Below are positions 26,169 to 60,487 of a DNA stretch of 64,000 nt, one piece after another (position 1 is the stretch's first letter; each line of letters starts with the position of its first letter). The DNA is taken from positions 1-64,000 of the forward strand of contig NZ_POTW01000016.1 in assembly GCF_003236295.1 (NCBI RefSeq), read 5' to 3'. The notes under the pieces were generated by a model. That model searched no databases, was not told the origin of the DNA, and was given only the letters and a program-made list of their open reading frames with translations. The position numbers and the translations under genes were made by a program. This stretch comes from Jiangella anatolica (GTDB lineage Bacteria; Actinomycetota; Actinomycetes; Jiangellales; Jiangellaceae).

Positions 26169-27536
26169 GTGCAGAAGCTGGCCAGATGTCTGGGAGCGCT
26201 GCTCGCTGTCCTGGCCGCCGTCCTGCTCGCCGCGCCCACCGCGGCCGCCCAGGGCAGCGGCGAGACGATCCATGGCACGCTCACGTACCAGGACGCGCCG
26301 GTCGCCGGCGTCACCATCACCGTCTCCTCCGCCGACGGCGACGAGATCGGGACCGCGCAGACCGCGGCCGACGGCACCTGGGAGGTGCCGGTGCCCGGCC
26401 CGGGCGACTACACCGTCGTGCTCGACGCGGCCACGCTGCCGTCGACGGCGCCCGGCGTCGCCCGCGACACCATCGAGACCACCGTCAACCCGCAGCAACG
26501 CAAGGTCGTGCTGTTCCGCGTCGGCGCCCCCGAGGGCGGCGGCGATCAGCCGTCACCATCGGCGACCTCGCCGTCCGAGGGCGGCGAGGAGGAGGGCCAG
26601 GCGCCCGGCGAAGGCAGCGCGGAGGCCGAGGCCGGCGAGGACATCACCGCCACCGCCGGCAACAACCAGCTGCTGCAGCTGTTCGTCAGCGGCATCCGCT
26701 TCGGGCTGATCCTCGGCCTGGCCGGGCTGGGGCTGTCGCTGGTCTTCGGCACCACCGGTCTCACCAACTTCGCGCACGGCGAGCTGATCGTGTTCGGCGC
26801 GGTGGCGGCCTTGCTGATGAACCAGGCCGGCGTCCCGATCCTGCTGGCGGCGCTGCTGGCGACGCTGCTCAGCGCCGTGTTCGGCTGGGGCCAGGATCGC
26901 GGGTTCTGGCGGCCGCTGCGCAAGAAACCCACCGGCCTGATCGCGCTGATGATCATCTCGATCGGTGTGTCGCTGTTCCTGCGCTACCTGACGCAGTTCA
27001 TCATCGGCGGCGGCCGCGAGACCTACGACCAGTACACGTACCAGAGCCCGGTCTCGATCGGCCCGCTCAGCATCACCCCGCGCGACCTCATCATCATGGG
27101 CATCTGCGTGGTGCTGCTGGCCGCCGTCGCGCTGGCGCTGACCCGGACCCGCATCGGCAAGGCCACTCGCGCCGTCGCCGACAACCCGGCGCTCGCCGCC
27201 GCGTCCGGCATCAACGTCGACCGCGTCATCACCGTCGTGTGGACCGTCGGCACCGCGCTGGCCGGCCTCTCGGGCATCTTCTTCGGCATGATCCAGGGCG
27301 TCGACTACCTCATGGGCATGCGGATCCTGCTGCTGGTGTTCGCCGCGACGGTGCTCGGCGGGCTCGGCACCGCCTGGGGCGCCATGGTCGGCGCGCTGGT
27401 CGTGGGCGTGTTCATCGAGGTCTCCGCCTACGTCGTCCCATCGGAACTCAAGACGGCCGGTGTGCTGGTCGTGCTCATCCTGATCCTGCTGGTCCGGCCC
27501 CAGGGCATCCTGGGCCGCCGCGAGCGGGTCGGCTGA
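26169..27536 (+). CDS. livH: Branched-chain amino-acid ABC permease LivH with extra N-terminal domain
   Basis: 455 residues from GTG 26169 (GGGAGG about 10 nt upstream). LivH normally has about 290-310 residues; here the permease core starts near residue 165 (RFGLILGLAGLGLSLVFGTT) and has the usual 8-9 helices and the NFAHGE motif. Ahead of it are a signal peptide (1-28), a carboxypeptidase-regulatory or Ig-like beta domain (about 30-115, ITVSSADGDEIGTAQT) and an acidic Gly/Glu/Ser linker (about 118-160). The extra domain should sit outside the membrane and could meet the binding protein. First gene of livHMGF; livM begins 19 bp downstream. Confidence 0.93.
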   Translation: MQKLARCLGALLAVLAAVLLAAPTAAAQGSGETIHGTLTYQDAPVAGVTITVSSADGDEIGTAQTAADGTWEVPVPGPGDYTVVLDAATLPSTAPGVARDTIETTVNPQQRKVVLFRVGAPEGGGDQPSPSATSPSEGGEEEGQAPGEGSAEAEAGEDITATAGNNQLLQLFVSGIRFGLILGLAGLGLSLVFGTTGLTNFAHGELIVFGAVAALLMNQAGVPILLAALLATLLSAVFGWGQDRGFWRPLRKKPTGLIALMIISIGVSLFLRYLTQFIIGGGRETYDQYTYQSPVSIGPLSITPRDLIIMGICVVLLAAVALALTRTRIGKATRAVADNPALAAASGINVDRVITVVWTVGTALAGLSGIFFGMIQGVDYLMGMRILLLVFAATVLGGLGTAWGAMVGALVVGVFIEVSAYVVPSELKTAGVLVVLILILLVRPQGILGRRERVG

Positions 27537-27555
27537 GGCGGAAGGAGCAACGACC

Positions 27556-28545
27556 ATGGACTGGGGAAACATCCTCGAGCTGTCGCTGCGCGAGCTGGTC
27601 GGCGTCCAGGCGATCGTGTTCGCCCTCGCCGCCATCGGCATCAACGTGCAGTTCGGCTACACCGGCCTGCTCAACTTCGGCCAGGCCGCATTCGCCGCCG
27701 TCGGCGGGTACGGCGTCGCCGTCATCGTCACCACGTACGGCTGGTCGTTCTGGCTCGGCCTGGTGGTCGCCGTCGCGGCGGCGGTCGTGCTGGCCCTGCT
27801 GCTGGGCGTCCCGACGCTGCGGCTGCGCGCGGACTACCTCGCGATCGTCACCATCGCCGCGTCCGAGATCGTCCGGCTGGTCGGCAGATCGGCGTGGGGC
27901 CGCGACGTGTTCGGCGGCTCCGACGGCATCACCGGCTTCAGCAGCGCGTTCTACGACCTCAACCCGTTCACCGAACCACTGGAGCTCGGCCCGTTCGAGT
28001 TCCGCGAGCGGGTGCTGTGGGTGCTGGCGGTCGGCTGGGCGCTGGTGGCGATCTGCACGCTGGTCGTCTGGCTGCTGATGCGCAGCCCGTGGGGCCGCGT
28101 GCTCAAGGCCATCCGCGAGGACGAGGACGCCGTGCGCAGCCTCGGCAAGAACGTCTACGCCTACAAGATGCAGTCGCTGGTCATCGGCGGCGTCATGGGC
28201 GCGTTCGCCGGCATCGTCTACTCGCTGTTCCAGGGCGCGATGCAGCCGGACGTCTACGCCACCAACTTCACCTTCTTCGCCTACGCCATCCTGATCCTGG
28301 GCGGCGCGGCGACCGTGTTCGGCCCGGTGCTGGGCGCCGCGATCATCTGGTTCTCCTTCCAGTTCATCGACCTCGCGCTGCGAGGCGCCATCGGCGAGGG
28401 GTACATCCCTGACTGGCTGATGGATTCCAACGACACCGGCGCCGTACGATTCATGTTGACCGGCGTCGTCCTGGTGCTCCTGCTGGTGTTCCGCCCGCAG
28501 GGCATTCTCGGCGACCGGAGGGAGATCGCGCTCGATGCCCGCTGA
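27556..28545 (+). CDS. livM: Branched-chain amino-acid ABC transporter permease
   Basis: 329 residues, nine or so membrane helices. FGYTGLLNFGQAAFAAVGGYG (residues about 33-53) is the LivM counterpart of the NFAHGE motif, and RSPWGRVLKAIREDEDAVRSLG (about 175-196) is the coupling loop that docks on the ATPases. It forms the heterodimeric channel with LivH. ATG 27556 has AAGGAG upstream. The 3' end overlaps livG by 11 bp. Confidence 0.96.
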   Translation: MDWGNILELSLRELVGVQAIVFALAAIGINVQFGYTGLLNFGQAAFAAVGGYGVAVIVTTYGWSFWLGLVVAVAAAVVLALLLGVPTLRLRADYLAIVTIAASEIVRLVGRSAWGRDVFGGSDGITGFSSAFYDLNPFTEPLELGPFEFRERVLWVLAVGWALVAICTLVVWLLMRSPWGRVLKAIREDEDAVRSLGKNVYAYKMQSLVIGGVMGAFAGIVYSLFQGAMQPDVYATNFTFFAYAILILGGAATVFGPVLGAAIIWFSFQFIDLALRGAIGEGYIPDWLMDSNDTGAVRFMLTGVVLVLLLVFRPQGILGDRREIALDAR

Positions 28546-29484
28546 CGACCTGACGCCCTCGGCGTCTCTGACGGCCAAGCGCGAAGCCGCCGTGGCCGCA
28601 CTGGCCGACGTCCCCCGCGAGCCGGGGGCCAAGAAGCCCGACCCGATCCTCGTCGCCGACGACGTCAAGCGGCACTTCGGCGGCCTGCTGGCCGTCGACG
28701 TCGACCACGTCGAGATCCAGCGCGGCTCCATCACCGCCCTGATCGGCCCCAACGGGGCCGGCAAGACGACGTTCTTCAACCTGCTCACCGGCTTCGACCG
28801 GGCCAACTCCGGGTCGTGGTCGTTCAACGGGCGGTCGCTGCACGGCACGCCGCCGTTCAAGGTGGCCCGGGCCGGCATGGTGCGCACGTTCCAGCTGACC
28901 AAGGCGCTGTCGAAGCTGACGGTCATCCAGAACATGCGGCTGGGCGCCACCGGCCAGCGCGGCGAGTCGTTCTGGCGCGCCATGCTGCCGTTCACCTGGC
29001 GCGCCCAGGAGACCGCCATCACCGAGCGGGCCGAGGAACTGCTGGCCCGGTTCAAGCTCGACACCAAGCGCGACGACTTCGCCGGCTCGCTCTCCGGCGG
29101 CCAGCGCAAGCTGCTCGAGATGGCCCGCGCGCTCATGGTCGAGCCGGAGCTCGTCATGCTCGACGAGCCGATGGCCGGCGTCAACCCGGCGCTCACCCAG
29201 TCGCTGCTGCAGCACGTGTCCAACCTGCGCGAGCAGGGCATGACGGTGCTGTTCGTCGAGCACGACATGGACATGGTCCGCGACATCGCCGACTGGGTGG
29301 TCGTCATGGGACAGGGCAAGATCCTCGCCGAGGGCCCGCCGGAGACCGTCATGTCCGACCACAAGGTCATCGACGCCTACCTCGGCGCCCACCACGACCA
29401 GTCGCTGGCGGAGCTGGAACAGGAGCTCGAGGCGGGCACGCTGACCGAGGAAGAGCCGGCCGCGGCCGAGACGGGGGACGGACG

Positions 29485-32910: not shown

Positions 32911-33522
32911 TCAGCTCTTCGGCTCGCCCTCGGACTCGGACAGGACGACCTTCGCCACCTCGCGCATGGACGTGCGCTTGTCCATGGCGGCCTTCTGGAT
33001 CCACCGGAAGGCGTCGGGCTCGCTCAACCCGTAGCGGGTCTGCAGCAGGCCCTTCGCCCGGTCGACCAGCTTGCGCGTCTCGAGCCGCTCGTTGAGGTCG
33101 ACGACCTCGTTCTCGAGCTGGGTGAGCTCCTCGTGCCGGGACAGCGCCATCTCGATGGCCGGCACCAGGTCGGCCTTGCTGAACGGCTTCACCAGGTACG
33201 CCATCGCGCCGGCGTCCCTGGCCCGTTCGACGAGGTCGCGCTGGGAGAAGGCGGTCAGGATCAGCACCGGTGCGATGCGCTGCTCGACGATGCGGGCCGC
33301 GGCGGAGATGCCGTCGAGCACCGGCATCTTCACGTCCATGACGACGAGGTCGGGGCGGTGCTCCTCGGCCAGCCGGACGGCGCTCGCGCCGTCCGCGGCC
33401 TCCCCCACCACCTCGTAGCCCTCTTCACCCAGCATCTCGATCAGGTCGAGGCGGATGAGCGACTCGTCCTCGGCCACGAGAACACGTCGGGCGGGCGCGG
33501 CTGGCGTAGGCGTTTCGGTCAC
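32911..33522 (-). CDS. ANTAR-domain response regulator (PdtaR-like)
   Basis: 203 residues. Residues 12-125 are a receiver domain: acidic pair in VAEDES, phospho-acceptor Asp in VVMDVKMP (about 62), Thr in LILTAFS and Lys in LVKPFS. A coiled linker (about 130-150) leads to the ANTAR RNA-binding domain (150-195; AKGLLQTRYGLSEPDAFRWIQ). ANTAR proteins bind paired hexaloop hairpins in mRNA leaders and block termination; the mycobacterial homologue PdtaR pairs with kinase PdtaS. GTG 33522 is the start. Core gene, normally near polA and pyk. Confidence 0.95.
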   Translation of the reverse strand: MTETPTPAAPARRVLVAEDESLIRLDLIEMLGEEGYEVVGEAADGASAVRLAEEHRPDLVVMDVKMPVLDGISAAARIVEQRIAPVLILTAFSQRDLVERARDAGAMAYLVKPFSKADLVPAIEMALSRHEELTQLENEVVDLNERLETRKLVDRAKGLLQTRYGLSEPDAFRWIQKAAMDKRTSMREVAKVVLSESEGEPKS

Positions 33523-33589
33523 CCGGGAAGCCTACTCGGCGCATGTTACGGAGAAAGGTAGGCTAGGCCCCTGTCGTGGCCGAGAGCCC

Positions 33590-33663
33590 GGCCCGGTAGG
33601 CAAATTGGCAAAGCCGGCGCACTCAAAATGCGTTGTTTGCGGGTTCGAGTCCCGCCCGGGCTA
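33590..33663 (+). tRNA. tRNA-Leu, anticodon CAA, with a short variable loop
   Basis: 74 nt folding as a standard cloverleaf. Acceptor 33590-33596 with 33656-33662 (one G-U at the end), D arm with GGC/GCC stem and TTGG loop, anticodon stem 33617-33621/33629-33633 with loop CTCAAAA (anticodon 33624-33626, CAA), T arm 33639-33655 with TTCGAGT loop and discriminator A33663. No CCA is encoded. The variable loop is only five nucleotides (33634-33638), although bacterial leucine tRNAs normally carry a long variable arm. It lies 67 bp from the divergently transcribed ANTAR gene. Confidence 0.93.
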
Positions 33664-34094
33664 CCCCTTCTCCTCCCGCAGTCACCGGCTCATCCGGCCG
33701 ACGGGACGGCGCGCTCAACCGAAGCTCGGGTGGTGCGGTCGGCATGCGGCTGAGCAGAACCGCAACGTCTCCTACGGCGCCGAGCTCGAAGACCCACGCG
33801 TCCTGGCGTTCGTCGAAGTGCTCGCTCGAATCCCGCACTCCGCGACTCAGCACGGCCGAGGCAGCGTCCAACTCGAGCTGATCCCGCAACCTCTCGCCCC
33901 GCAGCATGCGCCTGTCGTACGCAGCACACTCTCGCCGGGTCGCCCTTCCTCATTGCTGCCGCGGAAGCCCGGCAGAGGTGGGAGGCGTGGATCGTCGGCG
34001 CACGAGTCGAGTCCCCCGGCAGAGCAAGATCGGCTCGGGGTTGCGCAAGAAGGCGGCCCACAGGCGGCCCGGCCGTCGCCGAGCATTCGTCAGT
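33664..34094. other. 431-bp gap after the tRNA, no gene supported
   Basis: The gap lies directly downstream of the tRNA 3' end. A 94-codon minus-strand reading frame (33623-33907) runs through the antisense of the tRNA and is not convincing, although its first 55 codons look protein-like. No integrase, no second copy of the tRNA 3' end and no inverted repeat were found. It may hold remnants of an integrated element and the promoter of the next gene. Confidence 0.4.
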
Positions 34095-36686: not shown

Positions 36687-37280
36687 TCAACGAGCCCGCA
36701 GCGCCTTGCGCAGTTGCCGGCGACGACGCCAGCCCGGCCGCCGGGCGCTGACCGAGCCCATGCTCGCCACGCCTGTGACCTGTACGACCGCACGCGGACC
36801 GGCCGGCGGCGGCACCCTGACGTCGACGGCGGAGAACCGGCTCTCGACGTCGACCTCGATCGCGACATCCTCGGGCACCACCAGCTGCAGCGACGAAGCG
36901 GACAGGTCCACCTCGATGTGGCAGCCGCGGCCGGCGAACTCGGCCTCGGTGAAGTCGAGCACGACCGCCGACATCGACGCGGTGACGGTGAGCCGCTCCG
37001 GCGCCACCCAGTGGCCGGTGCGCTGCCCGGGCGACCCCTGGGCGCGGATCGCCACCGGCTCCCCCGCCGGGCGCGCCGCCACGCCGTCGTCCAGATCGGC
37101 GATGACGGCGTCCAGCTCGCCGCGGGTGCGCGCGGCCAGCGCCGAGCCGAGCCGTTCGTCCAGCTCGTCCAGGCCCAGCCGCCCATCGGCGGCCGCCGCC
37201 CGGACCCGCTCGGCGACCTGCTCCCGCTCGGCGTCGGAGACCCGCTGCAGCGCGCGCCGGGCGGCGTCGTCATCGGCCAT
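36687..37280 (-). CDS. DUF1707 (SHOCT-like) and LiaF-type domain protein
   Basis: 197 residues. Residues 10-60 (VSDAEREQVAERVRAAAADGRLGLDELDERLG) are the DUF1707 SHOCT-like helical domain. The C-terminal half (about 100-175) is a beta-rich domain like that in LiaF / cell-wall-active antibiotic response proteins. No membrane segment; the end is very basic (RRPGWRRRRQLRKALRAR). Envelope-stress function is inferred from the family. Starts at ATG 37280; convergent with the GNAT gene. Confidence 0.85.
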   Translation of the reverse strand: MADDDAARRALQRVSDAEREQVAERVRAAAADGRLGLDELDERLGSALAARTRGELDAVIADLDDGVAARPAGEPVAIRAQGSPGQRTGHWVAPERLTVTASMSAVVLDFTEAEFAGRGCHIEVDLSASSLQLVVPEDVAIEVDVESRFSAVDVRVPPPAGPRAVVQVTGVASMGSVSARRPGWRRRRQLRKALRAR

Positions 37281-37318
37281 GGCGCGATCCTATGACCCGC
37301 CGCCCGGCGCACAGAGGG

Positions 37319-37483
37319 TCAGCGCTCCTCGCGGAACTCCACGTGCCGCTGCGCGACCGGGTCGTACTTGCGCAGCACCAGCCGGTCGGGGTCGTTGCGG
37401 CGGTTCTTCCGGGTGACGTAGGTGTACCCGGTGCCGGCCGTCGAGCGGAGCTTCACGACGGGGCGCAGTTCGGTGCGAGCCAT
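37319..37483 (-). CDS. rpmG: 50S ribosomal protein L33, zinc-free paralogue
   Basis: 54 residues ([20 protein letters not shown]...). It aligns with L33 but has no cysteines, so the CxxC zinc knuckles of the standard copy are missing. Such C- paralogues replace the zinc form when zinc is scarce and so free zinc. ATG 37483 has AAAGGA about 6 nt upstream. It lies 30 bp after the rpmJ paralogue, downstream of the Zur-type box. Confidence 0.95.
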
Positions 37484-60083: not shown

Positions 60084-60242
60084 GGATCACCCTAACCCGG
60101 GACGAACTCGGGCGGAATCGGCGTCATGACCTCGCGTGATTTTACTGTCATCCGTAACAGCGAACAAGACTGTTCATGATCGACGGTTTCGGTTACGTTC
60201 CAAATCGGAGTTGCTCTCCGAGCGGAAGAAACGAGGCCGCCC

Positions 60243-60458
60243 ATGGACCGTCTCCAGCACATCGCGACGTTCTGCGGCAACTGCGATTGCGGTTGCCCGG
60301 AGTTGTTCCTCGACCAGAACGCGCCGCCTGAGCGCCGGGTCGTCATCACCGACGACTTCGGCCAGCGCGTGCAGATGAGCCTGGCGCAGTTCCGGCTCAT
60401 CGTCGAGTCGGCCAAGGAGGGCCAGCTCGACGAAGTGCTGCAGCCGGCCAACGCCTGA
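60243..60458 (+). CDS. Small Cys-rich protein, possibly DUF397-like
   Basis: 71 residues. Four cysteines are clustered at C11, C14, C16 and C18 (CGNCDCGCPE), a possible metal or Fe-S/Zn site. The C-terminal half (VVITDDFGQRVQMSLAQFR..AKEGQLDE) has the layout of the actinobacterial DUF397 fold (charged strand, hydrophobic strand, then K/A-x-GxxD helix). I cannot assign a function. The 159-bp upstream gap is divergent with lysE and contains GAACA-N4-TGTTC at 60162-60175. It could also be a RiPP-type precursor, but no modifying enzyme is nearby. Confidence 0.7.
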   Translation: MDRLQHIATFCGNCDCGCPELFLDQNAPPERRVVITDDFGQRVQMSLAQFRLIVESAKEGQLDEVLQPANA

Positions 60459-60487
60459 ACGACGCCGGCCGGCCGCAACGAGGCCGG

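Follow-up and report, generated by a model that had tools for sequence, protein, structure and literature searches.

Passages of a 2023 review state that leucine transfer RNA (tRNA-Leu) keeps its long variable arm except in animal mitochondria (PMC9976931). The same passages list the discriminator A73, the A15-U48 pair, G18G19 and A20a as leucine determinants in Escherichia coli, name A14 together with A73 for mitochondria "as for E. coli", and report that leucylation is uncorrelated with the sequence and folding of the long arm, arm-less variants remaining active in E. coli. The relevant part of the tRNAscan-SE 2.0 paper treats a human tRNA-Leu-CAA gene without the arm as part of an isotype conflict (PMC8450103). 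A passage on Mycobacterium tuberculosis names tRNA-Leu-2, 3 and 5 as long-looped, which implies a short-loop tRNA-Leu in that species (PMC11541572); on the strength of such passages, short-loop bacterial tRNA-Leu has already been noted in passing for mycobacteria. Here, we describe the tRNA-Leu(CAA) gene of the window, the first 64,000 nucleotides of contig NZ_POTW01000016.1 of Jiangella anatolica. Judged by its identity elements, its product is a normal leucine tRNA; its shape, with the short variable loop of a class I tRNA, is not the standard one.

We propose that this gene is the working and sole tRNA-Leu(CAA) of the cell, charged by leucyl-tRNA synthetase (LeuRS), that it represents a common actinobacterial class I form, and that it originated by phage-type replacement. 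We assign this reading a probability of about 0.85, its charging and the direction and route of replacement being what we infer from sequence. In the open-licence literature, we found no description of a class I tRNA-Leu as sole decoder in actinobacteria; subscription papers lay outside this search, and the result is not proof of absence.

The short-looped tRNA-Leu(CAA) of Jiangella

The gene comprises the following elements:

33590..33663, + strand: tRNA-Leu(CAA), class I, 74 nt without CCA (ARAGORN; Rfam RF00005, 63.5 bits)
33603..33610, + strand: D-loop leucine determinants A14 (33603), A15 (33604), G18G19 (33607-33608) and A20a (33610) (position parse; list from passages of PMC9976931)
33624..33626, + strand: anticodon CAA (ARAGORN, anticodon at gene position 35)
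33634..33638, + strand: variable loop UGUUU, five nucleotides; U48 (33638) is expected to form a trans-Levitt pair with A15
33663, + strand: discriminator A73 (position parse)

Within the 64 kb, it is the sole tRNA called by ARAGORN, as tRNA-Leu(caa) at 33590-33665, and the sole RNA family match at the Rfam gathering threshold (RF00005 at 33590-33663, gathering score 29, E 1.9e-11). The acceptor (7/7 pairs), T (5/5) and anticodon (5/5) stems are complete, and the 3'-CCA is not encoded. The five-nucleotide variable loop on a canonical cloverleaf is that of class I (4-5 nt) and not the long arm of class II (at least 10 nt). ARAGORN and Rfam confirm what an initial annotation, made from the letters alone, had reported, namely a 74-nt tRNA with anticodon CAA, discriminator A and a five-nucleotide variable loop. 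The single-strand energy fold has a z of -1.0 and a minimum-energy structure other than the cloverleaf, such a fold alone not being diagnostic; that the tRNA is regarded as real rests on its match to the covariance model and on its occurrence in 12/12 Jiangella genomes searched. Allo-tRNAs have a 12-bp acceptor/T branch split 8/4 or 9/3, and this type was ruled out by the 7 acceptor and 5 T-stem pairs formed here.

To place the gene among the tRNAs of the genome (completeness 100, 256 contigs), all 47 Rfam tRNA matches were typed with ARAGORN. Exactly one has the anticodon CAA; the second, class II CAA tRNA for which the initial annotation had suggested looking is not among them. The tRNA-Leu(UAA) at C21:9206-9279 is likewise of class I, with a variable loop of 5 nt, whereas the variable loops of the UAG, GAG and CAG tRNAs measure 13, 16 and 15 nt, respectively. 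The readers of the UUR leucine codons are therefore class I, and those of the CUN codons class II. As the best identity of tRNA-Leu(CAA) to any of 45 other tRNAs of the genome is not above 0.69, a recent anticodon shift is unlikely. Two further records of the same genome are unusual in themselves. One of them, L046 (G000:C179:34122-34203), resembles a class II serine tRNA, and its anticodon is called as GAA (Phe); its acceptor is mismatched (5/7 pairs), and it is probably a pseudogene, otherwise a potential misreader. A tRNA-like record (L039, G000:C154:72164-72234), called Pro/Pro by ARAGORN without a three-letter anticodon, has an apparently altered anticodon loop.

When the tRNAs were placed on standard positions (46 of the 47; L039 was not parsed), the full set of A14, A15-U48, G18G19, A20a and A73 was found in 5/5 leucine tRNAs, of both classes, and in 0/41 non-leucine tRNAs, though nine of the latter have A15-U48. 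Independently of the D-loop, 40 stretches were selected by TCAAAA/TTAAAA anticodon-to-T-loop patterns at class I spacing. Of these, 39 are short-loop tRNA-Leu, with variable loops of 5 nt in 36, 6 nt in two and 7 nt in one, and L348 is no tRNA. A14, A15, U48 and A73 are present in 39/39 and the full set in 36/39, the rest deviating at 20a or by an extra D-loop base. An earlier count (86/87 distinct chromosomal class I sequences with the determinants) is not used as evidence, because its search pattern had required A14, A15 and A20a and the other loci came from similarity searches.

A single LeuRS frame lies over the family cut-off in the genome (890 bits joined, 950 aa). With high confidence, we infer that this enzyme charges the sole tRNA-Leu(CAA) with leucine for the reading of UUG. 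The long arm would not be needed for this, with LeuRS reading A73, A15-U48, G18G19/A20a and A14, elements common to tRNA-Leu(CAA) and the three class II leucine tRNAs of the cell. The initial annotation had taken LeuRS to depend on the long arm, a premise that fails for E. coli according to the review passages cited above (PMC9976931).

The codon concerned is rare, as initially stated: the aligned window frames, one of which was later recognised as a shadow frame, contain 30 UUG and 2 UUA against 935 CUG and 467 CUC sites, so that UUG makes up about 2% of leucine sites. Window proteins were aligned with eight relatives, UUG and UUA being masked to keep them from steering the alignment, and a UUG site was considered informative where a relative has another codon. 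In frames with a G+C content at third codon positions (GC3) of at least 0.88, a limit that excludes the frames 27477-29376, 36690-37413 and 60214-60481, 18 of the 22 informative sites meet leucine codons only (hand count). These 18 account for 76 pairs, 74 with CUG and 2 with CUC; here, the codon of the tRNA stands for leucine. In the reverse direction, over all frames, UUG of the relatives is paired with leucine in 158/194 cases, followed by serine with 9. The comparison codon UUC, also one C-to-U step from a leucine codon, meets leucine in 35/1071 pairs. Earlier UUG counts (77/99 pairs with leucine; 17/26 sites) were discarded, having been lowered by the shadow frame 27477-29376 on the minus strand (GC3 0.79).

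Distribution and the locus beside the ANTAR gene

For the survey of other genomes, class was judged by the length of a pattern match from anticodon loop to T loop; unmatched genomes are uninformative, and tRNAs with other loop letters, such as a UAA loop ending in another letter, are missed. Among 168 genomes of Actinomycetes, the CAA pattern matches 73 (38 at class I length only, 34 at class II length only, one at both) and the UAA pattern 96 (78 class I, 17 class II, one both). Read backwards, the patterns match 5/168 and 3/168 genomes. The exact 30-nt CAA form occurs in 37 Actinomycetes genomes; odd lengths of 29, 32 and 35 look like chance. Genera with class I CAA include, among the matches listed after selection by pattern, Corynebacterium, Dietzia, Actinomyces, Gordonia, Bifidobacterium, Pseudonocardia, Micromonospora and Georgenia. 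All 12 Jiangella genomes searched, the window's own included, have a class I CAA gene, and in four of the other genomes it is 100% identical to that of the window.

Outside the class, 115/179 genomes of the phylum match the CAA pattern, 114 of the 115 with a class II-length match (hand count). G466 is the only one with a class I CAA match alone, confirmed as class I on inspection. Three more have a class I-length CAA match besides a class II one, and that of G359, when inspected, proved to be no tRNA. The UAA pattern matches 122/179 of these genomes, 28 at class I length (hand count, by pattern length alone). Matches of 46 nt to the TCAAAA pattern, which we take from their sequence and from general knowledge to be tRNA-Sec with anticodon UCA, were left out of the later survey. 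Judged by these patterns, class I tRNA-Leu(UUR) is widespread in Actinomycetes; its UAA form appears phylum-wide but patchy, and its CAA form nearly confined to Actinomycetes. The conserved actinobacterial variant that the initial annotation had offered as one interpretation is thereby supported and extended, since UAA tRNAs share the class I form and many families carry it. The class I fold is not standard throughout the phylum: outside Actinomycetes, 114/115 matched genomes have a class II-length CAA match.

Class I leucine tRNAs were also encountered in other settings. In one actinobacterium, the tRNA-Leu L105 (G034:C143) combines the class I form with UAG, an anticodon of the CUN type. Arrays with several class I tRNA-Leu of different anticodons occur in L138, L143, L248, L187, L199, L254 and L228, records whose titles name Cyanobacteria, Deinococcota, Acidobacteriota and Myxococcales. 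The array of L249, titled uncultured Microscilla (Bacteroidota), combines class I and class II tRNA-Leu and holds two UAG tRNAs of different class.

In the window, the gene is flanked upstream by the following features:

32911..33522, - strand: response regulator with ANTAR output domain, divergent from the tRNA (Pfam Response_reg and ANTAR)
33529..33534: AGCCTA, mirrored element towards the ANTAR gene
33559..33564, + strand: TAGGCT, conserved -10-like element upstream of the tRNA, in 14/17 Jiangellaceae loci

A gap of 67 bases separates tRNA-Leu(CAA) from the divergent response regulator gene, which is presumably of the pdtaR type. The mirrored AGCCTA...TAGGCT pair (33529-33564) is kept in Jiangella and Haloactinopolyspora and looks like two divergent -10 elements; a consensus scan upstream of the tRNA found no sigma-70-type promoter. 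The ANTAR gene is present in 20/22 Jiangellaceae genomes. In 19 of these, no more than about 1 kb separates it from tRNA-Leu(CAA); in G017, the distance is 5.5 kb and the CAA gene is class II. The same place beside the ANTAR gene is occupied by a class II gene in G012 and G015, and by a class I gene in G016, G018-G021 and Jiangella.

The DNA analysed for 61 of the 118 named class I loci also contains an ANTAR homologue. Among 90 rows with an ANTAR gene and tRNA-Leu(CAA) within 2.5 kb, 81 are divergent, at a median distance of 114.5 bases, and 65 carry class I and 25 class II. Judged by gene order, the pairing is far older than Jiangellaceae. The initial annotation had proposed to follow the conservation of this gene beside the ANTAR regulator: the adjacency holds in many actinobacteria; the class I form does not, class II standing there in some lineages, also within Jiangellaceae. 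The ANTAR tree requires at least six class changes, and the CAA gene at this place appears to have changed from one class to the other on more than one occasion.

Origin of the class I body and rival explanations

Class I genes have two main bodies. The common one has D-arms such as UAGCCCAAYUGGCAGAGGC. The class I genes of Jiangellaceae, G020 excepted, have the D-arm UAGGCAAAYUGGCAAAGCC, which in the sets compared is otherwise found in mycobacteriophages and ten viral contigs. Identities and tree were computed over 67 columns, the anticodon and variable region being excluded. The window tRNA reaches an identity of 0.881 to the CAA gene of phage I3, 0.806 to the best other chromosomal CAA gene, 0.776 to the family's UAA gene and 0.731 to the family's class II CAA gene, and in the tree, 8 Jiangellaceae rows fall together with 12 rows from phages (SH-aLRT 91). 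The Jiangellaceae class I gene thus seems to belong to a sequence group that includes mycobacteriophage tRNA-Leu genes. In phages, this body or one related to it is combined with CAA, with GAG and, in more diverged form, with CAG; in Jiangellaceae, as far as seen, it occurs with CAA alone. This favours phages as the source.

In G018 (Haloactinopolyspora alba), the 48-bp 3' half of tRNA-Leu(CAA) is repeated 54 kb away, and a phage integrase adjoins the tRNA. The 54-kb stretch between the repeats looks like an integrated element (L268 5911-7329, L269 5957-6004). According to passages of a published study, tRNA-Leu-CAA of M. smegmatis is the integration site of the phages Omega and Gaia, and Gaia makes up for the broken host gene with a tRNA-Leu-CAA of its own (PMC10865867). 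Integration into the tRNA-Leu(CAA) gene therefore provides a route for replacement. Most likely, a phage-type class I gene would have displaced the class II host gene by way of elements that integrate in this tRNA gene, a direction and route that we hold with moderate confidence. Gaia itself fails as an example of a class I donor, its tRNA-Leu(CAA) being class II. In phage Kashi_SSH1, a gene annotated as tRNA-Ala (L262 301-377) is read by ARAGORN as a short-loop tRNA-Leu(CAA). A wider proposal, to which we would give even odds, is that in actinobacteria the CAA gene beside the ANTAR gene, as a rule the sole reader of its kind and hence presumably essential, forms an exchange site, where integrating phages and other elements repeatedly swapped class II host genes for class I genes of phage type, and perhaps back; this would have left sole decoders of viral descent and would make the long arm dispensable in living bacteria.

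Several points weigh against the preferred reading. The survey gave no match in 95/168 (CAA) and 72/168 (UAA) Actinomycetes genomes. Four of the 22 informative UUG sites (21950, 21938, 32903 and 59777; 10 pairs) meet V, F, R/V or D, the first three lying near the N-terminal ends of their frames, and the GC3 limit of at least 0.88 was chosen after the site list had been seen. The phage group's SH-aLRT of 91, on 67 columns, is below the starred level of 95, and 5 of the 12 phage rows in it were taken from viral contigs that had been selected with a pattern for exactly this type. Phage ArcherS7 has a CAA tRNA (L260) that is not in the group, and the divergent class I gene of G020 (0.791) is not explained by a phage origin alone. 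In the ANTAR tree, the class changes drop from 6 to 2 when starred branches only are counted; some ANTAR rows are near-duplicates of one genome, and part of the class I loci were selected by the class I pattern. Finally, the transfer could have run from bacteria to phages.

The most serious rival is a loss in place, whereby the class II tRNA-Leu(CAA) native to the family lost its long arm by deletion, without a contribution from any foreign gene. This would account, without transfer, for the presence of both class I and class II genes in one position next to the ANTAR gene. After a simple recent deletion, however, the tRNA bodies should still be alike; with the anticodon and variable region excluded, identity of the class I gene does not exceed 0.731 to the class II CAA genes of the family, against 0.881 to a phage gene, and those class II genes group with other class II genes, so that we consider such a loss unlikely. 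It is most improbable of all that the tRNA is a decaying or array-type spare of little use. The low share of UUG among leucine sites and the frequency of class I leucine tRNAs in tRNA arrays and phages would suit a spare, but the genome has no CAA tRNA besides tRNA-Leu(CAA), which occupies a conserved locus by itself, has complete stems and every determinant, and recurs with 100% identity in the four other Jiangella genomes.

The initial annotation had also raised unusual charging. In this reading, the short loop would mark a tRNA that receives an amino acid other than leucine, from methionyl-tRNA synthetase (MetRS), for instance, or from another enzyme, and UUG would be read ambiguously. In its 3' half, the window tRNA has an identity of 0.82 to one tRNA-Met(CAT) of the genome and to tRNA-Glu(CTC), and the four UUG sites just named are not aligned with leucine. 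Over the whole body, however, identity to the genome's tRNA-Met is at most 0.66, and the 5' halves of the best two reach 0.53 and 0.47. The D-loop is of leucine type, with the full LeuRS set that none of the 41 non-leucine tRNAs has, and the other 18 UUG sites meet leucine only. Given E. coli-type determinants, one LeuRS and a codon that mostly meets leucine, unusual charging is unsupported and very improbable. The initial interpretation is thus partly supported, in favour of the actinobacterial variant, for which we retain replacement by a phage-type gene as the likeliest origin.

Comparison with known leucine tRNAs

Taken together, the tRNA is probably an ordinary, working one, and the textbook long-arm rule for tRNA-Leu probably needs an exception. 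Class I and class II leucine tRNAs served by one LeuRS would show in vivo what truncation in E. coli had suggested. Since one conserved locus holds either form, class I in Jiangella and class II in a sister genus, the purpose of the long arm becomes directly testable by swapping. The findings also point to phage-type genes as replacements for sole host tRNA genes.

Bacterial class II tRNA-Leu of the E. coli type has the same leucine anticodon, A73, A14, A15-U48, G18G19 and A20a; the window tRNA differs in its 5-nt loop, compared with 13-16 nt in the genome's own class II leucine tRNAs. The mycobacteriophage tRNA-Leu(CAA) genes of I3, ScoobyDoobyDoo and LeBron are class I or nearly so and 0.82-0.88 identical to it over 67 positions. 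Their D-arms are similar to that of the window tRNA and, in LeBron, identical (GUAGGCAAAUUGGCAAAGCC). In contrast to the Jiangella gene, they are phage-borne and adjoin other tRNA genes, and I3 and ScoobyDoobyDoo also carry short-loop CAG and GAG genes. The actinobacterial class I tRNA-Leu(UAA/CAA) with D-arms like GUAGCCCAAYUGGCAGAGGC shares the short loop, the leucine determinants and the position as sole CAA match in the genomes concerned, but differs in D-arm and body (identity to the window tRNA at most 0.806 for CAA and 0.791 for UAA). Animal mitochondrial tRNA-Leu(UUR) likewise lacks the long arm, its identity resting on A73 and A14 according to the review passages (PMC9976931); it represents a separate loss, whereas the Jiangella case occurs in free-living bacteria beside class II leucine tRNAs. 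A cluster-borne tRNA-Leu(TAG) of the Mycobacterium mucogenicum clade is likewise described as having a short variable loop (PMC6582537). That tRNA is an extra copy in a cluster with the normal one elsewhere, whereas the Jiangella gene is the sole one for its anticodon.
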